Source: Virgibacillus doumboii (GTDB lineage Bacteria > Bacillota > Bacilli > Bacillales > Amphibacillaceae). From it: DNA of 64,000 nt. Position numbers and translations under genes: made by a program. The DNA lies in the NCBI RefSeq assembly GCF_902806455.1, contig NZ_CADCWQ010000001.1, positions 930,001-994,000 of the forward strand, in the 5' to 3' direction. Positions 24,914-50,363 of this stretch are shown here, piece after piece (within the stretch, counting starts at the first letter, position 1; the number at the start of each line of letters is the position of its first letter). The notes under the pieces are model-generated. The model had not been told where the DNA came from and did not search any database. It was given only the letters and a program-made list of their open reading frames with translations.

Positions 24914-25630
24914 TTGAGAGTTAAATTAGTATTTGATATGAAATCTATTCCTATTGCGTATAGGCTGGGTACATTGTCGATTTTAAAAGAAATGATCAAA
25001 AGCGGATCACAAACATATTATGATAAGCTATTTGCCCAAAATAAACAAAAAATGAAATCGTTCACATATTCGACTTATATAGTTAATCTTGATATAAAAA
25101 AAGATAAAATATACGGAAAAGAACTACACATGAGCATATCAAGTTCAAGCTATGAGTTTATAATGCACCTCATGAATGGTTCAAAAAAAGGTCAATCATA
25201 CTTCATTAAAGATTCGCAACTAGTTTTAAAATCGAAAAGCTTGTTACCGAAAAAGTCTATAACAAATAGTGTTGTCTTATTTAAGACATTATCACCAATA
25301 TTAATAGAGTCGAAAGATCAGAAACCGTTATTAGCTACTGACGACCATTTTGGTAAAGAACTTCAATATATTGCAAATCTTATCCTCCAAGAAGTGTCTA
25401 ACCGAGAGCCCAAACAGCCCATCAAAGTTCTGCAAACAATGATGACGAAACAAGTCCTAAAAGAAAATCTGCATCAGACACAAAACGAACCATTATTTTT
25501 AACAGCGAATAAAGGATTGATACAACTCCAAGGTGAACCTGAAGATCTTCAATCCTTATACGAAAATGGGTTAAGTATGCGGAGGTCGCTTGGGCTAGGA
25601 TTATTGGAAATCGAAGAGGAGGTGAGATGA
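24914..25630 (+). CDS. cas6: CRISPR-associated endoribonuclease Cas6
   Basis: 238-residue RAMP protein that cuts the precursor crRNA within each repeat. The C-terminal glycine-rich loop GLSMRRSLGLGLLEIEEE is the Cas6 hallmark, and the two ferredoxin-like halves fit the length. The start is TTG 24914 after AAAGGTGGTGAG. It is first in the cas operon; its stop TGA is directly followed by the GTG of cas8. The AT-rich code matches the rest of the cas operon and differs from the neighbouring metabolic genes, consistent with transfer as a unit. Confidence 0.92.
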   Translation: MRVKLVFDMKSIPIAYRLGTLSILKEMIKSGSQTYYDKLFAQNKQKMKSFTYSTYIVNLDIKKDKIYGKELHMSISSSSYEFIMHLMNGSKKGQSYFIKDSQLVLKSKSLLPKKSITNSVVLFKTLSPILIESKDQKPLLATDDHFGKELQYIANLILQEVSNREPKQPIKVLQTMMTKQVLKENLHQTQNEPLFLTANKGLIQLQGEPEDLQSLYENGLSMRRSLGLGLLEIEEEVR

Positions 25631-27328
25631 GTGAATAAAGTCGACGTTTCCATGAATGAATGGGCTCTTACGCAAGGTATGGTCGGATATAAGAGAATAT
25701 TAGAATCTTACGGTGTAAATGTTCCAACAACGAATGATGGTTTAACTGTTACAAAAGAACAATTAAAGATATTACCTGAAGCGTTTTTCGATTACTTTTT
25801 GAAAAAATACAGTGTTGCCAAAAGGCATGAAAAAGTGCTCGGAAATTGGCACAGCCGCTGGAGAAAAGGGGAGAAAAAGTTTAAATCGGATTTAAACAAA
25901 CGGCTGAAAGATATCGAAACAAAGGTCGGCAAGTATTTTAAAGAGCATGATTCTGGACGCAACGTGATTGATAAAGTAAATCTATATCGGAATGAAAAAG
26001 CGTATAAAGAAGAAATGGACCAATGGCTGGATGAAATAATTGAAGGGCTTAAAATAAAAGAAATAGATGAAAAACTAACTTGCAATACATTTAAAGCAGT
26101 GTATTTCCAACCATATTTTGGTCAACCCAGCTTTTTGAATGTATCCAAGAATTCTCTAACTGTTCATGAACAAAAAGAGTTATTTTCATATGATTACGTT
26201 AAGCCGGTTCTGGATGAATGGGATTTTATGAGACTGATAGAACAAGAAGAACATGAGAAAAGTCTGGAATTATTAAAAAAAGCCAGCAACAAACACCCAC
26301 TTTCATCTTTTAAACAAACATTTAAGAACAAAAGCATTCAAGAGATAAATCAATACATTAACGATGAAATTCTTAAATGTAGTTTGACAGATTTTCCATT
26401 GGGGCTATTTTCATTTGAAGAAAGTGTCTTTTCACCCTTGGCGTTGAGCCTCGGAAATTCCCTGAACTCTACTTGGAATAGTGAAGGCAAGAACTTTTTT
26501 CCAATTAGCGCTCTGGCTAAGTTAGTATTATTTTGCGCACCTGCCGGGGCAACAGTTTCAAATGGCAAGTCTGTGTTTGTGCAGTTTGATGGCTCTTTTG
26601 ATCAAGTTTACCACGCCAATGAACACTATAATACAGAATCTGATGAAGAAAAGCCATTTGATGAAGTCATTTTTGACCTTGTGAGTGAGCAGAAGTTAAG
26701 AGCAGATATGCTTAATAAAAATTATCTTATTCTAGAGTATGAATCGGATTATCAGGCAAAAAAAACGTTATTGGATTATATGATTCTAACCCCAAATCTA
26801 GTAAATCTATTTGAAAGGCACAGTAAGTTGTTTAGTTATTTATTTTATCGGAATCGGGTGACTTTCATCAAATACTTGCTTAAGACAATAGATACGAAAG
26901 CATTTATTTTTGAAACACTTCGGGATAAAATTAAGAACAATTATTCACCATTAGAAGTAATGTTCATGACGATACTGAGGCACTATAATCAATTTTATTT
27001 AAAGGAGGGCGTAAATTATATGGATCCCGAAAAGCAGCAAAAATATATTTGGGTGTTGTATAAGAGTGCAGAAAATGTACGAAATAAAATTGGGCTTAAG
27101 AAAGCTCAAAGAATCGCTTATCGTTTATTAAATTCTGTTCAGGCAGGAAACAGGAATACATTTATGGACACCGTTATGAGAGTCTATATTTCTAGTGACT
27201 TGGAGATGCCGACACTTCTTCTGGAAGCATTACATGAAAAGAACATGGAATTTGAAACAGTTGCAAACGCATGGATTTCCGGATTAATTTCTAAACCAAA
27301 TGAGGAAGGGGAAGTTAAAAATGCCTAA
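25631..27328 (+). CDS. cas8b: Type I-B Cascade large subunit, Cas8 (Cst1-like)
   Basis: 565-residue protein placed exactly where Cascade large subunits stand, between cas6 and cas7. Its sequence is weakly conserved; the assignment to the Cst1/Cas8b group rests on position, length and its Cst2-type Cas7 neighbour. Residues ~60-130 are lysine-rich and helical. Expected roles are PAM recognition and target opening. Start GTG 25631 follows GAGGAGGTGAG. Its last 8 nt overlap cas7. Confidence 0.82.
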   Translation: MNKVDVSMNEWALTQGMVGYKRILESYGVNVPTTNDGLTVTKEQLKILPEAFFDYFLKKYSVAKRHEKVLGNWHSRWRKGEKKFKSDLNKRLKDIETKVGKYFKEHDSGRNVIDKVNLYRNEKAYKEEMDQWLDEIIEGLKIKEIDEKLTCNTFKAVYFQPYFGQPSFLNVSKNSLTVHEQKELFSYDYVKPVLDEWDFMRLIEQEEHEKSLELLKKASNKHPLSSFKQTFKNKSIQEINQYINDEILKCSLTDFPLGLFSFEESVFSPLALSLGNSLNSTWNSEGKNFFPISALAKLVLFCAPAGATVSNGKSVFVQFDGSFDQVYHANEHYNTESDEEKPFDEVIFDLVSEQKLRADMLNKNYLILEYESDYQAKKTLLDYMILTPNLVNLFERHSKLFSYLFYRNRVTFIKYLLKTIDTKAFIFETLRDKIKNNYSPLEVMFMTILRHYNQFYLKEGVNYMDPEKQQKYIWVLYKSAENVRNKIGLKKAQRIAYRLLNSVQAGNRNTFMDTVMRVYISSDLEMPTLLLEALHEKNMEFETVANAWISGLISKPNEEGEVKNA

Positions 27329-28211
27329 TAATAAAGCGATTACATTTACAGTTGTATTTCGGGCAAATTCATTAAACTATGGTGAAGGAACGGCAAACAT
27401 TTCGGAATTGAAGAAATTCCACCGTGGTGATGGCGGTGTTTACTCTTTTGCATCCAGACAGAGCTTGCGTTATGACATGGTACGTATGGGGAATCAATTT
27501 TTTGACTGGAACCTTGATGTAGTGGACAAAGAACAAAGAGTTATCCAATTTAAGGAGAAATGCACGATTGAAGATTCGGTTGAAATGGATTTGTTTGGCT
27601 ATATGAAAACAAAAGCTAAAACCGGTGCAGCCAAGCGTTCTGCTGTTGTTCGATTAAGTCATGCCATTTCGTTAGAACCATATAAAAGTGATCTTGAGTT
27701 TTTGAATAATATGGGACTTGCTTCACGTATAGACGAAGACTCAAATTTGGCCACAATTGAGCAACATATCAGCTATTATGCTTATACAGCCACAATTGAT
27801 TTATCGCGTGTAGGCATTGATGCGGGCGTTGAGTTAAATACAGAAGAAAAAATCAACCGGGTTAAACAATTTCTTGAAGTGACTAAATTTTTAAATCGGG
27901 AAATTCGAGGCAGACAGGAAAATCTTTCACCATTGTTTGTGATTGGCGGTTCGTACCCAATTCCGAATCCATTCTTCCAAGGTCGGGTATCACTTGATGG
28001 TAAAGATCAATTAAATATTACATCACTGGAAGATACAGTTAATTCAAATGTGTTTGAATCGTCAATTAAAGATAGTACCAATATCGGTTATGTTCGGGGG
28101 ATTTTTGCAAACGAAGAAGAATTTTCTAATATTGCTAACACAGGATCTGTTGATGAATTTTATAAGAAACTGGCAAAACAGGTTGATGAGTATTATGGTG
28201 TTTCAGTATGA
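27321..28211 (+). CDS. cas7: Type I-B Cascade backbone subunit Cas7 (Cst2/DevR family)
   Basis: 296-residue RAMP-fold subunit that binds the crRNA spacer in multiple copies. FRANSLNYGEG, SFASRQSLRYDMV and AAKRSAVVRLSHA are typical of the Cst2/DevR branch, which sets this locus in subtype I-B (Tneap). ATG 27321 with GGAAGGGGAAG is preferred over ATG 27300, which lies inside the cas8 frame overlap. It overlaps cas5 by 4 nt. Confidence 0.93.
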   Translation: MPNNKAITFTVVFRANSLNYGEGTANISELKKFHRGDGGVYSFASRQSLRYDMVRMGNQFFDWNLDVVDKEQRVIQFKEKCTIEDSVEMDLFGYMKTKAKTGAAKRSAVVRLSHAISLEPYKSDLEFLNNMGLASRIDEDSNLATIEQHISYYAYTATIDLSRVGIDAGVELNTEEKINRVKQFLEVTKFLNREIRGRQENLSPLFVIGGSYPIPNPFFQGRVSLDGKDQLNITSLEDTVNSNVFESSIKDSTNIGYVRGIFANEEEFSNIANTGSVDEFYKKLAKQVDEYYGVSV

Positions 28212-28918
28212 AAGTATTGAGAATCAAAGCCTTTCAGGAAACCGTGTGCTATAAAAAACCTTTTGCTAATAAGGTAACCGAAACTTACCCGCTCCCGCCT
28301 TATTCGACCGTAAAAGGAATGCTACACGCTGTTTTGAATGCGGACAGGTTGATACCATTTTCGTTATCCGTACAAGGGGATTTTGAAAGTCAGCTTGTTG
28401 ATTATCGAAAAACGTATTTTGTAAAGAAGCATGAATTTGCAATGCCTATTGTTTTAGATGGAATTGTGAGTGAAGCGCCTTCTTACTCGAGTAATGTTAT
28501 GACGTCTATGCCACTGTATACTCATATGCTGTATAATGTGCAGCTCGTAGTCCATATCAAAGCCGAGGAGCGAATTTTGGATGAAATATATGATGGTTTC
28601 AAGAAAATAAGCTCATTTTTATCATTAGGCAGACATGAGGATTTGCTTCGTGTTGATGAGGTTGAGTTTGTTGAGCTTAAGGAGACAGATGAATGTACGA
28701 CGAAGCATTCCATTTATATACCAAAGGAATATGTAGAAGAAGAAGGTTTGGGAGTTCCATATTTATTAAACTGGACTTACACAATTAAAAAAGGTATTAG
28801 GGAGTGGGATAAAATACCGTCTATTTATATTCCACAGAATGAAGAAATTAATGAAGAGTATTTTAACAATCAAATCTTTGTTGACAGTGATAACTATCCG
28901 GTTTTCTGGAACCAGTAG
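28208..28918 (+). CDS. cas5: Type I-B Cascade subunit Cas5
   Basis: 236-residue Cas5, which binds the 5' tag of the crRNA. The N-terminal segment LRIKAFQETVCYKKPFANKV followed by YPLPPYSTVKGMLHAVL is the Cas5 family pattern (PPYSTVKGML in particular). It is coupled to cas7 by ATGA overlap. A stem-loop separates it from cas3. Confidence 0.93.
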   Translation: MKVLRIKAFQETVCYKKPFANKVTETYPLPPYSTVKGMLHAVLNADRLIPFSLSVQGDFESQLVDYRKTYFVKKHEFAMPIVLDGIVSEAPSYSSNVMTSMPLYTHMLYNVQLVVHIKAEERILDEIYDGFKKISSFLSLGRHEDLLRVDEVEFVELKETDECTTKHSIYIPKEYVEEEGLGVPYLLNWTYTIKKGIREWDKIPSIYIPQNEEINEEYFNNQIFVDSDNYPVFWNQ

Positions 28919-28923
28919 ACAAC

Positions 28924-28951
28924 AGCCAATGGGTTCTGTCCCCCATTGGCT
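28924..28951 (+). terminator. Stem-loop between cas5 and cas3
   Basis: AGCCAATGGG and CCCATTGGCT form a perfect 10-bp stem with an 8-nt loop, followed by ATTTTG. It starts 5 nt after the cas5 stop. The T-run is weak, so it may be an attenuator or an mRNA-stabilising hairpin that lowers cas3 relative to Cascade. Confidence 0.6.
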
Positions 28952-28973
28952 ATTTTGTAAAGAGGTGATTAAA

Positions 28974-31199
28974 ATGCTGATTGCAAAAACGTGGCCTAGG
29001 CTGGAAACTTTGATGGAACATACGGACGAGCTATTGGATAGGTTTAATGTTTTGAAAAGAGCATACTATGAAAAAATTCCTGATGAGAGAATATGGGGTA
29101 TTTTGTATAAGGCAGCACAATATCATGATCTAGGAAAAATAAATAATGATTTTCAGGTAAAAATGCATAATGCACTTAAAACAAATGAAGTGGTTCATCC
29201 ATCTAAATTTGGTCATATTCCACATAATTATTTATCACCATTCTTCTTACCTGTTTCCAATTGGGATCTCAGTAAAGATGAAAGAAGGGTGCTTGTGCAG
29301 GCAATTGCCTATCACCATGAGCGAAATACACAACCGGATGTAACATTTTTAACTAAGGTTTATGAGGAAGAACTCATGAATCACTTCAATAAGATTGCAT
29401 GTGAAATGGAAGTAGATGTACCAGAAAAGAATCAAAAAAAATATAAAATCACTAATCCTTTAAAGCCTAAGGACCGAATTACAGAAATAAAAGATGGCAA
29501 GGACACATATTACCTGTACATCCTAATAAAAGGATTACTTCATCGCTTAGACCACGCAGCGTCTGCCCATGTTCCAATAGAAGTTGACACCGATGTTAAT
29601 ATCGCTGAATTAACCTACAATTATATGCAGGAAAACTTTGGCCGGAAAGCACTTCGACCACTCCAAGAATTTACATACAAAAATCAGGATAAGAATCTCA
29701 TTATAATCGCCCAGACAGGAATGGGGAAAACAGAAGCCTCCTTGCTTTGGGCCGGGAAAGATAAAACATTTTTTACTCTTCCGATACGCGTTTCATTAAA
29801 TGCACTTTTTGATCGAGTTCATAGTGATATAAATTATAAAAATGTTGGATTGCTGCATGGGACCAGTGCTTCACACCTTGATAAAAATGGTGAAGAGGAC
29901 TGGGAAGTGATTTATGACCAGTCCAAAAACTTTTCAAATAAGCTATTGTTCACAACGATTGATCAAATATTGAAATTTCCGTTTAAGTTTAAAGGCTATG
30001 AGAAGTTTTTTGCTACAATGGCTTATTCCAAAGTCATTATTGATGAAATACAGGCATACAACCCGTGGATAGTTGCGGTACTTCTCAAGGCAATTGAGAT
30101 GATTCATAAAATTGGTGGAAAATTCATGATTATGACGGCCACAATGCCGCAAATCTATTTGGATGAATTGGCTGAAAGAGGGGTCCTAGATGAAAACACG
30201 ATAAATAATGGATTTGTAGATGAATCTTTTATTAGGCATAGAATAAGCTTACAAGATATGGCGATTAGTAGAGATGCAGATCTCATAATAGAAATGGCAT
30301 CAAATCAAAAGGTACTGGTTATTGTTAATACTGTTGATCGTGCAATAGAACTTTATAAGCAATTTGAGGGTAAAAACGTTCATTTATTGCATTCCCGATT
30401 TATACAACGTGATCGTGCTCTGTTAGAAAATGAGATAAAACGATTTGCTGATGAAGAAGAAAATGGTATTTGGATTACTACACAACTGGTAGAAGCGTCA
30501 ATAGATATTGACTTTGATGTCTTATTTACTGAGCTTTCTACCATTGACAGTTTATTACAACGGTTTGGCCGTTGCTATCGCAAACGGAAACTGGATCATG
30601 ATAATCCAAATGTATTTATTTATACGGAAGATGTATCCGGTAGAAAGTATGTTTACGATGAAGATATTTTAGATTTAACTGAAAAGTATATACTATCATT
30701 CAATGGAAAACAATTAAACGAAAAGGACAAGGTTGATCTAGTAAAAAGAATATATTCAAAAGAAGAATTGAACGGCACAAAATTTTATGAGGATTTCCAA
30801 CATGCTGTCCATAAATTAAATCACTTAGAGGATTACCAATATACAAATGATGAGGCTCAAAAAATTCTTCGTGGAATTCAATCGGTTAATGTTATTCCAA
30901 GAAATATATATGATGAACTAATAGATTTGCTTGAAGCTTTGGAAAAAGAAAAAGATTCAAAGAAACGTACGGGGCTACGACTAGAGATAGATAAATATAC
31001 GCTCTCTATTCCAGATTATAAACATAAAAATGAAAGAACGCCAATTGATTTTTATCAGACAGGTAAAGACGGGCGAAAATACAATATACTGCCAAACATT
31101 GAAGTATTAGATGTTGACTATGAGTTTGATCTTATCACCTTGAGTGGGACAGGTTTGAGCGGAAATACTGAATCGGGAAACACAATAATATTTGATTGA
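28974..31199 (+). CDS. cas3: CRISPR-associated helicase-nuclease Cas3 with HD domain
   Basis: 741-residue effector that degrades DNA opened by Cascade. The HD nuclease is N-terminal (AAQYHDLGKINNDF; AIAYHHERN). The helicase core follows, with Walker A in AQTGMGKTEA, motif II IIDEIQAY, motif III MTATMP and motif VI QRFGRCYRKR. ATG 28974 with AGAGGTGAT is the true start; the open frame back to 28839 runs inside cas5 and is not used. The stop overlaps the cas4 leader. Confidence 0.95.
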   Translation: MLIAKTWPRLETLMEHTDELLDRFNVLKRAYYEKIPDERIWGILYKAAQYHDLGKINNDFQVKMHNALKTNEVVHPSKFGHIPHNYLSPFFLPVSNWDLSKDERRVLVQAIAYHHERNTQPDVTFLTKVYEEELMNHFNKIACEMEVDVPEKNQKKYKITNPLKPKDRITEIKDGKDTYYLYILIKGLLHRLDHAASAHVPIEVDTDVNIAELTYNYMQENFGRKALRPLQEFTYKNQDKNLIIIAQTGMGKTEASLLWAGKDKTFFTLPIRVSLNALFDRVHSDINYKNVGLLHGTSASHLDKNGEEDWEVIYDQSKNFSNKLLFTTIDQILKFPFKFKGYEKFFATMAYSKVIIDEIQAYNPWIVAVLLKAIEMIHKIGGKFMIMTATMPQIYLDELAERGVLDENTINNGFVDESFIRHRISLQDMAISRDADLIIEMASNQKVLVIVNTVDRAIELYKQFEGKNVHLLHSRFIQRDRALLENEIKRFADEEENGIWITTQLVEASIDIDFDVLFTELSTIDSLLQRFGRCYRKRKLDHDNPNVFIYTEDVSGRKYVYDEDILDLTEKYILSFNGKQLNEKDKVDLVKRIYSKEELNGTKFYEDFQHAVHKLNHLEDYQYTNDEAQKILRGIQSVNVIPRNIYDELIDLLEALEKEKDSKKRTGLRLEIDKYTLSIPDYKHKNERTPIDFYQTGKDGRKYNILPNIEVLDVDYEFDLITLSGTGLSGNTESGNTIIFD

Positions 31200-31213
31200 C
31201 AGGAGTTGATGAA

Positions 31214-31708
31214 ATGGTTAGTGGCGTTCATATCCAGTATTATTTTGTTTGTCATCGGAAGCTTTGGTTATTCTCCAAAAACATTCAACTCGAAGAAGGT
31301 CATGAACGTGTACAAACGGGGAAAATATTACATGAACGTGCTTATAAAAATTCAGACAAGAAAGAACTTGCAGTGGATAATTTAAAAATAGATGCAATTG
31401 ATGGTGAGTATGTAAGGGAAGTCAAAGTTTCAAGCAAAATGACTAAGGCAGATAGATTGCAGTTATTGTTCTATCTATATGAACTCAAAAAACGCGGACT
31501 AAACAAAAAAGGCTTAATCAGTTATACCAAAGAAAAAAGAACGGAAGAGGTAGTTTTAAAAGAGGAAGACGAAAAAGAATTGGAAAACATAATTGAAGAT
31601 ATTTATCAGATTATGGAACAGCCTTATCCACCTGAAGTCATTAATTCGCCTATTTGCACAAAGTGTGCCTATTATGATTTTTGTTATGCGGAAGAAGGTG
31701 AGGAGTAA
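31214..31708 (+). CDS. cas4: CRISPR adaptation exonuclease Cas4
   Basis: 164-residue RecB-like, iron-sulfur protein that trims prespacers and helps choose the PAM. The lone N-terminal Cys is in FVCHRKLW, the C-terminal cluster in CTKCAYYDFC, and the nuclease residues in DAIDGEYVREVKVS. ATG 31214 after AGGAG is preferred over TTG 31196. The cas1 ATG follows the stop without a gap. Confidence 0.93.
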   Translation: MVSGVHIQYYFVCHRKLWLFSKNIQLEEGHERVQTGKILHERAYKNSDKKELAVDNLKIDAIDGEYVREVKVSSKMTKADRLQLLFYLYELKKRGLNKKGLISYTKEKRTEEVVLKEEDEKELENIIEDIYQIMEQPYPPEVINSPICTKCAYYDFCYAEEGEE

Positions 31709-32698
31709 ATGAATAAAGATTATTTTATTTTTAATAGCGGCCGAATGCGAAGGAAGAATAATACGTTCTACTTTATAGATGAAGAAGAAAATAAAAAATC
31801 GTTGCCTGTTCATCAGATGGAAAACATATATGTATTTGGCAAGGTAGATTTCAATACTAGCTTTTTAGATTTGCTTACAAAACATAATGTCAGGATTCAC
31901 TTCTATAATTATTACGGTTTTTATTATGGCACGTATTATCCTCGTTCAAAGAAAGTTTCTGGTTTTACAGTCGTTAATCAAAGCAGACATTATTTAGAAA
32001 AGGATAAAAGGGAATATCTGGTAAAGCAATTTGTTTATAGCAGTGCTTTTCACATGCTTCGTAATCTAAGGAATTATAAAAAGTACGAAGAAGTAAATTT
32101 GGTGATTGAGAATATTCAATCAAATCTTGAATTATTAAAGAATGTTAAGCGTGTGCCTGAAATTATGGGTGTTGAAGGAACGCTGAGACAACTCTATTAT
32201 TCTGCCTTTAATTATTTTTTACCGGAAGAATTTGCATTTGACACAAGGACAAAACGACCACCTAAAGACCCCCTTAACGCTTTAATTTCGTTCGGGAATA
32301 GTATGTGTTATACAACCGTGTTAACCGAGATCTATAAAACTCATTTGGACCCGACGGTTAGTTTTTTGCATGAACCATCAACTAAAAGATTTTCATTAAG
32401 TTTGGATATTGCAGAGATTTTCAAGCCGTTATTAGTGGATTCGGTTATTTTTGCATTACTCAATCGAAAACAAATAAATATATCAGATTTTGAATTTTTG
32501 GAGGAAATGGTCATACTTAATGATTCAGGGAAGAAGAAGTTTATTAAGGAATGGAATGATAAACTGGGCACAACTATACGACATCGGAAGCTAAAGCGAA
32601 ATGTTTCCTATAAGTATTTCATCAGATTAGAGTGCTATAAGCTGATAAAGCATTTTATTGGTGATCAAAACTATAAACCTTTAAAAGCGTGGTGGTAA
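31709..32698 (+). CDS. cas1: CRISPR integrase Cas1
   Basis: 329-residue integrase of new spacers, metal-dependent. The N-terminal beta domain begins YFIFNSGRMRRKNN. Catalytic residues are visible as Glu in PEIMGVEGTLR, His in VSFLHEPSTKRFS, and the following LDIAEIFKPLLVD. Length is standard. The cas2 ATG overlaps its stop (TAATG). Confidence 0.97.
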   Translation: MNKDYFIFNSGRMRRKNNTFYFIDEEENKKSLPVHQMENIYVFGKVDFNTSFLDLLTKHNVRIHFYNYYGFYYGTYYPRSKKVSGFTVVNQSRHYLEKDKREYLVKQFVYSSAFHMLRNLRNYKKYEEVNLVIENIQSNLELLKNVKRVPEIMGVEGTLRQLYYSAFNYFLPEEFAFDTRTKRPPKDPLNALISFGNSMCYTTVLTEIYKTHLDPTVSFLHEPSTKRFSLSLDIAEIFKPLLVDSVIFALLNRKQINISDFEFLEEMVILNDSGKKKFIKEWNDKLGTTIRHRKLKRNVSYKYFIRLECYKLIKHFIGDQNYKPLKAWW

Positions 32699-32964
32699 TG
32701 ATGTACGTTATCATAACATATGATGTTGGGGTCAAGCGTGTCGGGAAAGTGTGCAAAAAGTTAAAAGAGTATCTTACCTGGTCGCAAAATTCCGTGTTTG
32801 AAGGAGAAATTACGAAAACATTATTACTTCAATGTATGAACGAACTTGAATCAATAATCAATCCAAATGTAGATTCTATATATCTATATGAAGTACGAAA
32901 TCCGAACCATATTAAAAAGACAGCATACGGTGTGGAAAAGTCATTTGACGACATGTTTTTATAA
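32698..32964 (+). CDS. cas2: CRISPR adaptation protein Cas2
   Basis: 88-residue Cas2 with the N-terminal beta strand MYVIITYDVGVKR and the following RVGKVCKKLKEYL, the usual ferredoxin-fold pattern; EGEIT is kept. It bridges two Cas1 dimers in the adaptation complex. ATG 32698 overlaps cas1, and ATG 32701 is an equally possible start. It is the last cas gene before the leader. Confidence 0.97.
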   Translation: MMYVIITYDVGVKRVGKVCKKLKEYLTWSQNSVFEGEITKTLLLQCMNELESIINPNVDSIYLYEVRNPNHIKKTAYGVEKSFDDMFL

Positions 32965-32971
32965 GCTGTAC

Positions 32972-33142
32972 TTGCAGTAAACCTTCAATTTATAGAAATA
33001 ATGTAAAAACATTGATATACTGGGATTGAGGATTTGTTTTCTCAGTATTTTGTATTTAAGACTAGTGGTTTACTGCAAAAGTGACTTAATCTTAGTTCCA
33101 TGAATGTTGATTTCATGGGGTTTTTTAGGTGAATTTTGTAGG
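32972..33142 (+). promoter_or_regulatory. CRISPR leader
   Basis: The 178 nt between cas2 and repeat 1. It contains an extended -10 (TGA TATACT, 33013-33021), a 12-bp inverted repeat TTGCAGTAAACC (32972-32983) and GGTTTACTGCAA (33067-33078), and a hairpin CCATGAA/TTCATGG followed by GGTTTTTT (33098-33126). The last looks like a terminator only 16 nt before the array. Leader-end position agrees with the degenerate repeats at the far end. Confidence 0.8.
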
Positions 33143-36100
33143 GTTATATCTGAACATAGTGGGATATAAAGAAAGAAAGGCGACGGAACACAAATGGACT
33201 GTTGTAAGTTATATCTGAACATAGTGGGATATAAAGACACAAACCGAAGAATTAATTGAAATAATCAAATCCGTTATATCTGAACATAGTGGGATATAAA
33301 GATTAAATAATTACTTTATAATAGGGGCGTGTTATAGTTATATCTGAACATAGTGGATATAAAGAAAACAGTAGATATTATTAAAGAGTACATTGATAAT
33401 GTTATATCTGAACATAGTGGGATATAAAGAGACCTTTCATGGAGCGAATTAAGTTGTCTTTTTCGTTATATCTGAACATAGTGGGATATAAAGTTTATTA
33501 ATATTGTAGGACGTACTGCGTGCCAGTTAACGTTATATCTGAACATAGTGGGATATAAAGACGCAACCCGATATGCTTTTTCCGTTTCTGCTTTTTGTTA
33601 TATCTGAACATAGTGGGATATAAAGCTGATTTAAAAGCGATTGTGCGCTTTCTTTTAGACTGTTATATCTGAACATAGTGGGATATAAAGAATAAAGTAT
33701 CTAAAATAAATGGGAATTGTTACAAGTTATATCTGAACATAGTGGGATATAAAGGGAGCAATAATTTGAGAGTTTGACAATACATTACTCAGTTATATCT
33801 GAACATAGTGGGATATAAAGACATCATCATTCCATCTCCTTTACTGTTCAAAACCAGTTATATCTGAACATAGTGGGATATAAAGAAACTACCAAAGGGA
33901 ATATTAAAACGTGGTGATCGTGTTATATCTGAACATAGTGGGATATAAAGTATACTCGAAGAAATTCGCAACGATCAAGGCGAATTAGTTATATCTGAAC
34001 ATAGTGGGATATAAAGCTAGTTTTTCGTATATGCTCATTTCCATCCTCCTTAAAGTTATATCTGAACATAGTGGGATATAAAGTAACAAATACGTTGAAC
34101 CGATTACTGAAATCGAATACCAGTTATATCTGAACATAGTGGGATATAAAGACGCATTGAACGCCTCTTTGAACAGTCGGTCTGTTCGTTATATCTGAAC
34201 ATAGTGGGATATAAAGCTAGATGATTTTACATTAATAGTAGAAACATCTGTAAAGTTATATCTGAACATAGTGGGATATAAAGACGGATATGAGCGCTCA
34301 AGTTCCGACGGCGCAGACGTTATATCTGAACATAGTGGGATATAAAGTTGCTAGGTTAGGGGGCTGCTCCTCAACAACCCCAGTTATATCTGAACATAGT
34401 GGGATATAAAGCTAGCAGACGTGGACAATTCTTTGCAAGGGCGACCAGTTATATCTGAACATAGTGGGATATAAAGATAGTTTTCGTACTCTCATTTGAC
34501 TTTTCGCTTGGTTTGTTATATCTGAACATAGTGGGATATAAAGTCTGCAACAATTCTTGCACGTCTGGGGTTTGTCCGGGTTATATCTGAACATAGTGGG
34601 ATATAAAGCAATAAATTCCGGCGGGTAAATCAAACATCGTTTCGTTATATCTGAACATAGTGGGATATAAAGAAAGCAAAGTGAGATTTCATGGTGGAGG
34701 TACTTGAACGTTATATCTGAACATAGTGGGATATAAAGTTTTCCCGAATATGCCAGTACAATGATATTAGCAACGTTATATCTGAACATAGTGGGATATA
34801 AAGAAGTCCATTTTGTGTATATCGCTCAATGCGCCCTCTTGTTATATCTGAACATAGTGGGATATAAAGAACCCACCAGTAAAAGCATATAATTTTTCGT
34901 TTACTTGTTATATCTGAACATAGTGGGATATAAAGCTGGCAGATGTGGACAATTCTTTGGTAGGTCGCCCAGGTTATATCTGAACATAGTGGGATATAAA
35001 GACAATAATTTCAGCAGACAAACCGTTGTTATAATACGTTATATCTGAACATAGTGGGATATAAAGACGCATTGAACGCCTCTTTGAACAGTCGGTCTGT
35101 TCGTTATATCTGAACATAGTGGGATATAAAGTTGACTGTTGTATTGGTGCTTTAGCTTTGCTGATCGAGTTATATCTGAACATAGTGGGATATAAAGTTG
35201 TAAAATACGGGGATTACCACGATTGCGATAACGTTATATCTGAACATAGTGGGATATAAAGGGAACATTCAACAAAGAGAAATACATGATTTAACCGAGT
35301 TATATCTGAACATAGTGGGATATAAAGACTAATCCGCAATGTCACATATTCGTCGTCCTCGACGTTATATCTGAACATAGTGGGATATAAAGATGAAAAG
35401 AGCGATAAATGCTAGGTTGAAAGATTATGTTATATCTGAACATAGTGGGATATAAAGATATTATCCATGGGGTGTGTGGGTAACGGCATATGCGTTATAT
35501 CTGAACATAGTGGGATATAAAGCTCCATGCTTTCGCTGTGATTCCCTCGAATGTACATGTTATATCTGAACATAGTGGGATATAAAGCCGGTAGTGAAAT
35601 ACGAGCAACTGAATGTGACTTTTCGTTATATCTGAACATAGTGGGATATAAAGTTGGAAACCAAAACAAGCTACAACGAAAACATTCCGGTTATATCTGA
35701 ACATAGTGGGATATAAAGACGCATTGAACGCCTCTTTGAACAGTCGGTCTGTTCGTTATATCTGAACATAGTGGGATATAAAGATTGTTGGATTAGGTGC
35801 TCTAGCGGTTGAATCAACGTTATATCTGAACATAGTGGGATATAAAGTATGAAATAGCTTCATGTATTGGTAGATTGTTTGAGTTATATCTGAACATAGT
35901 GGGATATAAAGATAATCGGTGATAATGTTGGCAGCATGGAGAACAGAGTTATATCTGAACATAGTGGGATATAAAGGGCGACACATTAACCAAAATTGCA
36001 GAAATGTACGGGTTATATCTGAACATAGTGGGATATAAAGTATTGAACGCTGACCCCTCGTCCTTTGGATGCATAGGTTATATCTGAACATAGTGGGATA

Positions 36101-36621
36101 TAAAGACATGAATTCGCCTGCTTTACCTGCACCCTGAAGTGGTTATATCTGAACATAGTGGGATATAAAGTCTCCTCACTCATTCGTGACCCCCTAACAT
36201 TACGACAGTTATATCTGAACATAGTGGGATATAAAGGTCACTGTTTTAAGAATTCTTAAAAACCCCGCTTTGTGTTATATCTGAACATAGTGGGATATAA
36301 AGTTAGTCTCCAACATTCTAAAGGTGTTAGTTTTCTGAGTTATATCTGAACATAGTGGGATATAAAGCAGATTAATCGTCCAAAGCGGTATGGATGAAAA
36401 CGTGTTATATCTGAACATAGTGGGATATAAAACGCGCTTATTTGAGAATATGTCGTATACTACTTGCATTTTTATCTGAACGTAGAGGGATATAAAGCTA
36501 TACCAAATTCTGAGAAGGTGTTAAAACGATTATATCTGAACATAGAGGGATATGAAGTTTATAATTTTAACCCACAGAATCAAGTGAGATATTTGTTATA
36601 TCTGAACATAGAGATACAAAG
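33143..36621 (+). CRISPR. CRISPR array, 54 repeats of 29 nt (three terminal ones degenerate)
   Basis: Counted by hand: repeats start at 33143 and recur every 64-67 nt to 36595. The repeat begins GTTATATCTGAACATAG and ends TGGGATATAAAG; TTATATC and GATATAA can pair into the stem that Cas6 recognises. Repeat 4 (33337) lacks one G. Repeat 51 (36404) ends in A, and repeats at 36469, 36529 and 36595 are diverged, marking the old end. The 53 spacers are mostly 35-38 nt. Spacers 16, 30 and 40 (34152-34187, 35067-35102, 35719-35754) are identical. Spacers 20 and 28 are diverged versions of one coding sequence. Confidence 0.98.
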
Positions 36622-49403: not shown

Positions 49404-49716
49404 TTAAAATTCTCCTCTGCTGTTTCGCAAATAATCAAATTATGGATAGATTATATCGAAATTAGTCCATTTAGTCTATAATATTCGAATGGTCAACACT
49501 TAATAAGACGATAGAGAAGGAAGGAATGTTTCAGATGTTTTGTTTCTGTGTAATTTAATCGGGGTTATCGGGTGCTGAAATTCTTATAAAATGAATCAAA
49601 TGACCTATTTCGATAAAGTATTTTCGGAAAATTACAAAACTAGTTCCATTTAGACAAAAGAAGACACCCAAAACTCCGTGAACGTATAGTATAGTAGTCT
49701 TATACAAACAGAACTT

Positions 49717-49804
49717 CCCCAGTAAAAAGCAAACTTATTGAAAAATAAGGTCGCAAAGTCACGGGTCTAAAGCATTAGTGCTAAGATGGCCGGGCTGCCT
49801 GGGA
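49717..49804 (+). promoter_or_regulatory. Cyclic-di-GMP-I (GEMM) riboswitch
   Basis: The P1 stem is CCCAG (near 49718) with CTGGG (49799-49803). P2 has AGCAAAC...GGTCGCAAAG with the arms CTTATT/AATAAG, and P3 follows with CACGGGTCTAAAG and GATGGCCGGGCTGCC. These are the conserved pieces of GEMM-I, including the CGCAAAG tetraloop-receptor region. P1 ends only about 8 nt before the sinI ribosome site (GGGGGATGGG), and no clear terminator follows, so control may act on translation. 49404-49716 shows no other feature. Confidence 0.9.
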
Positions 49805-49825
49805 TTTTATATGGGGGATGGGAAT

Positions 49826-49951
49826 ATGAGAAATGCGGAGAAGAGTGGAGATCTGTATAATGAATGGGTGGAATTAATGGTGGAAGCGAAAGCGATTGGA
49901 CTGACGGTAGAGGAAATTCGAATGTTTTTAACTGACAATTGTAAAAAATAA
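49826..49951 (+). CDS. sinI: SinI-like antirepressor
   Basis: 41-residue peptide with EWVELMVEAKAIGLTVEEIR, matching the SinR-binding helices of Bacillus SinI (residues 9-39). It is shorter than B. subtilis SinI because the C-terminal tail is missing. It should bind SinR and free the biofilm matrix genes. Start ATG 49826 follows GGGGGATGGG. It stands between the GEMM riboswitch and sinR, as in Bacillus sinIR. Confidence 0.9.
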   Translation: MRNAEKSGDLYNEWVELMVEAKAIGLTVEEIRMFLTDNCKK

Positions 49952-50024
49952 TAAGAATTACTGTGCTTTATATAGAACCAAGCACCTTTTTGTGTTATAA
50001 TCTGCATGAAAGAAGGTGTGTGAC

Positions 50025-50363
50025 TTGATCGGTGAAAAAATAAAGCAATTACGACAAGAGAAAAAGATGTCTATTTCTGAACTGGCCGAGAAAGCTGGAG
50101 TAGCTAAATCCTATTTAAGTTCTATTGAGAGAAGCCTTCAAACAAATCCATCGATCCAGTTTATTGAGAAAATCAGTTCTGTACTGGGTGTATCAGTAAA
50201 TGATTTGATTCGGGAAGATAAATGGAAAGACACAGAAGAACAGTTAGATGGGGAATGGTTGCAAATCGTTCAGGAAGCAATGAATTCAGGCGTTTCAAAA
50301 GAGCAATTTAAAGAATATCTTGAATTTAATAAGTGGCGAAAAAAACAGGAGGATAAACTCTAA
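50025..50363 (+). CDS. sinR: SinR-like transcriptional regulator (biofilm/motility switch)
   Basis: 112-residue regulator. Residues 1-65 are a HTH_3 domain (IKQLRQEKKMSISELAEKAG, then VAKSYLSSIERSLQTNPSIQ), nearly identical in pattern to B. subtilis SinR. The C-terminal SinI-binding helices are EWLQIVQEAMNSGVSKEQF and EYLEFNKWRK. Start TTG 50025 follows AAGAAGGTGTG; GTG 50016 lies inside that site. It represses matrix genes and is antagonised by SinI. The 73-nt gap from sinI contains a TATAAT-like box (about 49996), allowing separate expression. Confidence 0.95.
   Translation: MIGEKIKQLRQEKKMSISELAEKAGVAKSYLSSIERSLQTNPSIQFIEKISSVLGVSVNDLIREDKWKDTEEQLDGEWLQIVQEAMNSGVSKEQFKEYLEFNKWRKKQEDKL

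Follow-up and report, generated by a model that had tools for sequence, protein, structure and literature searches.

In Bacillus subtilis, c-di-GMP mainly restrains motility and has a weak link to matrix genes. In the SinI-SinR pair of this species, sinI is described as being under the control of Spo0A (passages of PMC3163267; structure 1b0n). For B. methanolicus MGA3, one table row and one sentence of PMC4342826 name a putative '(c-di-GMP)-sinI' riboswitch before BMMGA3_08510, and these passages give no mechanism, direction, conservation or binding. A survey of antisense riboswitches describes a c-di-GMP-I element beside a SinR-like XRE gene of Paenibacillus and proposes that it acts on this gene in antisense (PMC9943018). 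In our searches of the open literature these two were the only earlier mentions found, and we saw no prior description of conservation, platforms or direction. Among related systems, the c-di-GMP-I riboswitch of cap/cbpA (Bc2) in the B. cereus group is described as an ON switch in a sessile-life gene (a passage of PMC7423583), and sinI expression went up in B. thuringiensis when the cyclase CdgF was overexpressed, the passage leaving the route unstated (PMC7793685).

The window analysed here is a stretch of 64,000 nucleotides from Virgibacillus doumboii (contig NZ_CADCWQ010000001.1, positions 930,001 to 994,000), and it carries a riboswitch of the same kind as that listed for B. methanolicus, directly before sinI. 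The aptamer shares sequence and structure with the RF01051 (GEMM-I) class and differs from it in target gene and in platform, the P1 5' strand being the predicted anti-SD arm before sinI. The predicted direction is that of Bc2; Bc2, in contrast, is described as transcriptional and controls an adhesin, whereas the window leader would control the antirepressor of a biofilm master regulator (PMC7423583, passage as above). The riboswitch class is thus known and the target has been mentioned before, while the extent of the circuit and its likely mechanism appear to be new.

The original prediction, made from the sequence alone, had placed a GEMM-I aptamer directly before a sinI-sinR pair, and both parts were borne out. 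Scanning the whole window with cmscan, we found a full-length RF01051 match (model span 1-87 of 87) scoring 75.3 bits, far over the gathering score of 35 (E 5.7e-13); with our own model R1, whose training set includes this aptamer, the score was 83.9 bits. In the RF01051 alignment the ligand-contact position is G (GCAAAC from 49729), not the A of cyclic AMP-GMP variants, and the base 5' of GCAAAC is A where the consensus has G. We take the G before CAAA to be the ligand-contacting G20 of Vc2, in numbering and in role. The 41-aa ORF that follows matches Pfam SinI (PF08671) at 42.5 bits against a cut-off of 31.4, as the sole family matched and with no HTH, and aligns with B. subtilis SinI (1b0n_B) at 28.4 bits. 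It falls below the NCBIfam equivalog NF046031 (AntRepSinIBacil; 32.3 vs 80 bits), and by Pfam the product is a SinI-family protein, not that equivalog. The next ORF has the SinR-like architecture of HTH_3 plus a C-terminal SinI domain (Pfam); it can be aligned with residues 1-110 of B. subtilis SinR (1b0n_A, from the SinR-SinI complex; 141 bits), and the SinR of Virgibacillus subterraneus is 90% identical to it. Just 5' of the sinR -10 we also noted GTGCTTTATATAGAACC (49963-49979), similar in the five relatives compared. Its TAGAAC resembles what we take to be the reverse of the SinR operator GTTCTYT, so that sinR may repress itself through this site. Elsewhere, at 24914-36432, the window holds a CRISPR-Cas set with Cas6, Cas7/DevR, Cas5, Cas3 and Cas1, presumably of type I-B, with 50 Rfam CRISPR-DR43 repeat matches at 33143-36432.

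Table 1. Coordinates in the window of the features around the sinI leader, sinI and sinR.
Feature	Position	Strand	Remark
Conserved upstream box CAAAACTAGT	49635..49644	+	just upstream of the 0A-like box
0A-like (Spo0A) box TTTGTCTAA	49650..49658	-	8/9 to TTTGTCRAA
Candidate -10 of sinI, TATAGT inside TATAGTATAGTAG	49690..49695	+	probable; predicted from motif
Anti-SD arm TTCCCCA	49715..49721	+	overlaps P1 5' strand; complements 49812-49818
c-di-GMP-I aptamer	49718..49802	+	RF01051
P1 5' strand CCCAG	49718..49722	+	complements 49799-49803
P1 3' strand CTGGG	49799..49803	+	sequence
SD GGGGGA of sinI	49813..49818	+	sequence
sinI, 41-aa antirepressor	49826..49951	+	ATG 49826; Pfam SinI, 1b0n_B
sinR extended -10 promoter TGTTATAAT	49993..50001	+	motif kept in sinI-sinR gaps
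sinR	50025..50363	+	probable start TTG 50025; longer ORF from GTG 50016

The aptamer is conserved before sinI among relatives. We drew the family set from 108 genomes of the GTDB family with a PF08671 match and examined 99 of them, window included, each at a single sinR locus; the remaining 9 either fell outside the matches listed or showed no full sinR. sinI adjoins sinR in 86 of these loci (phmmer). Searching all 99 with R1, which was built from 28 aptamers, we found an aptamer above 50 bits at 58, window included, and every one lies among the loci with sinI (58/86, vs 0/13 without sinI); the remaining 28 sinI loci have no aptamer above 40 bits. The named loci from the genome collection come in part from genomes of the family set, so they add no independent count; 56 of these 80 gave an R1 match above 39 bits. 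The aptamer lies upstream of sinR on the same strand in 50 of these 56, in genera that include Lentibacillus, Virgibacillus, Oceanobacillus, Ornithinibacillus, Sediminibacillus, Aquibacillus, Salinibacillus, Salirhabdus and Sutcliffiella, and downstream on the other strand in 6. No c-di-GMP-I match was found in 14 control genomes, B. subtilis included. The original prediction named no known riboswitch at sinI of B. subtilis; for B. methanolicus the association had already been listed (PMC4342826, passages as above). Two outcomes that would have spoken against the original prediction, a covariance score under the threshold and a lack of the aptamer before sinI in close relatives, did not occur.

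The leader could act on the SD of sinI through P1. We counted 9 nt from the end of P1 to the SD, close to the 8 or so first proposed, and the aptamer match ends 23 nt before the start codon. In what we call the type-A platform, which the window has and the family sinI-sinR loci share in varied form, an often pyrimidine-rich P1 5' strand UUCCNCAG stands opposite an SD such as GGGGGA; genus g33 has a variant with UUCUUC opposite GGAGGG. In the window the arm pairing UUCCCCA:UGGGGGA, as computed, overlaps P1, so the two pairings are mutually exclusive. The unconstrained fold paired the SD with the arm at a probability of 0.80, and enforcing P1 raised the probability of a free SD from 0.17 to 0.97 at a cost of 3.0 kcal/mol, which could be met by tight ligand binding. 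Across 55 type-A leaders the mean probability of a free SD rose from 0.27 to 0.64 with P1 enforced (up in 45, down in 3; no gain in 10), a result to be read as feasibility and not as proof, for an enforced P1 partly guarantees release of the overlapping arm and in some rows the helix picked by the script may differ from the true P1.

On average, arms paired better with the SD of their own leader than did exchanged or shuffled arms. Pairing of each arm with its own SD averaged 0.41, vs 0.29 with arms swapped between genera and 0.14 with shuffled arms, and the native value was reached in 0 of 60 rounds of either kind (56 leaders, 21 genera). This test omitted L083, L066 and L042 from the 59 leaders, and the enforced-P1 test dropped one more that lacked P1. 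Arm-SD pairing was 0.00 in single leaders of genera g13, g38 and g43 and at most 0.02 in 7 of 12 leaders of g24; in some type-A leaders with little arm pairing, the fold has the SD bound up elsewhere in the aptamer. In these models, then, the effect of the type-A platform is not uniform across leaders.

A second platform was found at another sinI of the same genome. This genome has five c-di-GMP-I aptamers, two of them before SinI-family genes, and the second aptamer-sinI unit (at 102714; SinI 35.1 bits) is not linked to the window locus. Its leader (G000:C1:102700-102840) is of type B, in which CCUGAAAUAC-loop-GUAUUUUAGG folds into a hairpin of 10 bp, built with the P1 3' strand and taking in the start of the SD. 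Type B occurs also in Sutcliffiella, Robertmurraya and others, and its signature was absent from all 59 family leaders. From 12 sinI leaders of this type we built a sequence model, R2, and ran it on 397 genomes of the order. All 30 of the best matches lie directly before a SinI ORF, as do 59 of 60 further ones, hand-picked from rank 31 on among the matches listed with some near kin skipped, so that 89 of the 90 examined precede a Pfam SinI gene. In a class-wide run on 398 genomes the same was seen at 12 of 14 loci from other orders; 15 were inspected, of which one (L328) belongs to the same order. We first chose these ORFs by the motif W..L...A and checked them against Pfam afterwards, whereupon 102 of 102 (89, 12 and L328) matched SinI at E 0.001 or better. 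A check with Rfam was made on 20 selected loci, and each of them gave a c-di-GMP-I or c-di-GMP-I-GGC aptamer. As R2 was trained on sinI leaders, its top matches sample c-di-GMP-I riboswitches with a bias; some of them come from the training set (L219, which is this genome's second sinI), and L220, L235, L239 and L242 share their SinI with training loci.

The type-B hairpin is well kept in its pairing, with 97.5% of cells holding standard pairs vs 27-52% when the strands were slid. Covariation is slight: double changes occur at only 2 of the 10 pairs, as many as were reached in 25 of 500 shuffles. This alignment has 68 loci, namely the 90 less L304 (no platform found by the script), 17 identical ones, and L275, L300, L303 and L305, which the script had shortened or which have a different hairpin. 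With P1 enforced, the SD was freed in 71 of 77 type-B leaders and access went down in 2, the other 13 of the 90 having been skipped for lack of a hairpin or P1 anchor that the script could recognise. L303 and L305 represent a third sinI platform, with the P1 3' strand in a short hairpin that ends in UUCAGG and the SD right after (CCUG(G)AAAAAUUCAGG before UUUGGAGG).

Upstream of the aptamer, the leaders share what look like promoter and regulator sites. We scored 0A-like boxes against TTTGTCRAA, which we take as the 0A-box consensus, and found that 54 of the 59 type-A leaders have a box agreeing at 8 or 9 of its 9 positions, against a mean of 6.5 and a maximum of 14 in dinucleotide shuffles; 51 of these boxes are on the minus strand, and 51 lie about 60-80 nt before the aptamer. 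At the same threshold type-B leaders have fewer, 12 of 30 (shuffle mean 3.5, max 7). Spo0A is encoded in the genome of the window (Spo0A_C, 153.7 bits). The box CAAAACTAGT, possibly a further regulator site, recurs in 57 of the 59 type-A leaders if one mismatch is allowed (mononucleotide shuffles gave 0.7 on average and 3 at most), and the candidate sinI -10 motif TATAGTATARTAG in 44 of 59 if two are allowed, mostly 30-35 nt before the aptamer. The separate box predicted before sinR was also found: the extended -10 TGTTATAAT is present with at most one mismatch in 84 of 85 sinI-sinR gaps and perfect in 81 (shuffles: mean 9.2, max 18). The 0A-like box suggests a two-input gate at sinI. The original prediction had set riboswitch control here against Spo0A control in B. 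subtilis; the riboswitch is indeed at sinI, but judging by these boxes Spo0A control has probably been added to and not replaced. The protein pair is that of B. subtilis, where sinI is under Spo0A control and where no c-di-GMP-I match was found; the window has an 0A-like box.

Taken together, the riboswitch-sinI unit is real and conserved, and its function can be predicted. We consider it likely that this c-di-GMP-I riboswitch turns ON the translation of SinI, with Spo0A~P as a further input, and so sets the SinI:SinR ratio. Without c-di-GMP, the P1 5' strand UUCCCCA would pair with the SD UGGGGGA (in type B, the SD would be held in the hairpin with the P1 3' strand), sinI would be poorly translated and SinR would repress its targets. 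Once bound, c-di-GMP would hold P1 (CCCAG/CUGGG) and release the SD, SinI would be made and SinR titrated. Ligand binding by this RNA and the ON direction are what we infer from aptamer and folds; Spo0A binding and a biofilm outcome are what the B. subtilis system leads us to expect. Spo0A~P, acting at the 0A-like box, probably increases transcription of the leader, so that sinI would need both signals, while SinR would be made regardless from its own promoter. Because sinR keeps that promoter, the switch would set the ratio of the two proteins. As P1 frees the SD in both types, both predict an ON response to ligand at the level of translation.

An OFF switch, by which c-di-GMP would lower SinI and favour SinR and motility, seems unlikely to us. 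It could draw on the few leaders in which SD access fell with P1 (3/55 of type A, 2/77 of type B), but access rose in 45 of the 55 and in 71 of the 77, and the OFF sense would run contrary to what is generally known of c-di-GMP. OFF c-di-GMP riboswitches do exist, one being described before B. thuringiensis mcpA (a passage of PMC7793685).

We think it improbable, too, that the switch acts in either direction on transcription, through a terminator or Rho, and not on translation. The cbpA riboswitch of B. thuringiensis is described as transcriptional (a passage of PMC7423583), and our terminator scan of a 1.2-kb region gave 2 candidates vs 0.7 expected from shuffles, among them a lone weak 5-bp stem (49790-49802, then GATTTTATAT) within the 3' end of the aptamer. 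Between aptamer and sinI, however, the scan showed no convincing terminator, as originally predicted: there is no stem with a proper U run, just 23 nt remain to the start codon, and the type-B hairpin holds the SD itself. The proposed action on sinI translation agrees with both sequence and predicted folding.

If SinI translation responds to c-di-GMP, the fate of the aptamer in genomes that lack GGDEF proteins is of interest. No GGDEF match was found in 12 of 159 family genomes, seven of which keep sinI beside sinR; the aptamer is missing from six of the seven and altered in the other (G043, L066). Among sinI genomes it is present in 57 of the 79 that have a GGDEF match (absent in 22) vs 1 of the 7 that have none (Fisher p 0.0043), a value given without kinship correction because the SinR tree is too poorly resolved. 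That tree (86 rows) implies at least 14 aptamer changes and 6 GGDEF changes, its 110 columns are too few, and its well-supported branches yield 1 independent pair differing in GGDEF and 3 differing in aptamer. In G043 two core words of the aptamer are changed (GCAUAC for GCAAAC, UGCAAAG for CGCAAAG), although it scores 60 bits with R1 and passes Rfam (50.1 vs 35 bits); the usual place of the sinI start codon is empty, and a start codon comes only further in. L082 (G153) keeps sinI and the promoter words, with a trace of the aptamer at the expected place (12 bits, alone not significant). A degenerate aptamer of 20.4 bits also precedes sinI at L083 (865-947), in a genome (G100) that keeps 16 GGDEF matches.

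The 28 of 86 family sinI loci that have no aptamer above 40 bits would suit an aptamer that is a mere passenger of common descent, or that mainly stabilises the 5' end, leaving sinI largely outside c-di-GMP control. We hold this to be very unlikely: the aptamer has been retained in various genera and orders along with platforms of two kinds that differ in how they pair the SD, it recurs before the second, unlinked sinI of the genome, and it is altered or gone in all seven sinI genomes examined that have no GGDEF match. The genome of the window has 9 GGDEF matches, and no TasA-like protein (PF12389) was found in it. Of its three remaining c-di-GMP-I aptamers, one precedes an EAL-motA-motB group and another cheX-cheA (both by Pfam), and the last a second EAL group (EAL by Pfam; its motA-motB-cheX look was judged by eye). 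These groups (L135 and L136; G000:C1:541088-549000, 3224545-3231646) could point to feedback on c-di-GMP and motility. Two further sinI-like genes (L137 1437-1562, 51.9 bits to SinI; L138 1287-1499, 46.3 bits) have no RF01051 match beside them.

The 6 opposite-strand loci come from Peribacillus, Robertmurraya (two records of one species), Cytobacillus and two Bacillus sp. records, the aptamer lying just downstream of sinR. That the riboswitch serves there as an antisense element on sinR, as a passage of PMC9943018 infers for the c-di-GMP-I element at the SinR-like gene of Paenibacillus, is the least probable of the readings and hardly to be credited, since all 5 of the loci inspected have a SinI ORF with its own SD directly behind the aptamer, convergent with sinR, which gives the aptamer a sense target, and the tandem layout of the window leaves antisense action inapplicable. 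The Paenibacillus element is of the same class and likewise beside a sinR-like gene (PMC9943018, passage as above). Our loci suggest that where a c-di-GMP riboswitch lies opposite a sinR-like gene, it may control a short sinI gene in the sense direction.

Returning to c-di-GMP as an activator of SinI translation, we lean, with less assurance than for the window itself, towards a broader reading: that this control is an old and widespread start to biofilm formation in Bacilli, forming an AND gate with Spo0A~P, built on at least two SD-masking platforms, and absent as a layer from B. subtilis, the species behind the SinI-SinR paradigm. The prediction is concrete, namely a switch that is ON, translational and in need of Spo0A. 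If true, the sinI riboswitch would connect the SinR master switch, through a single RNA, with a messenger of sessile life that is itself widespread, and it would explain how Bacilli other than B. subtilis couple c-di-GMP to matrix production.
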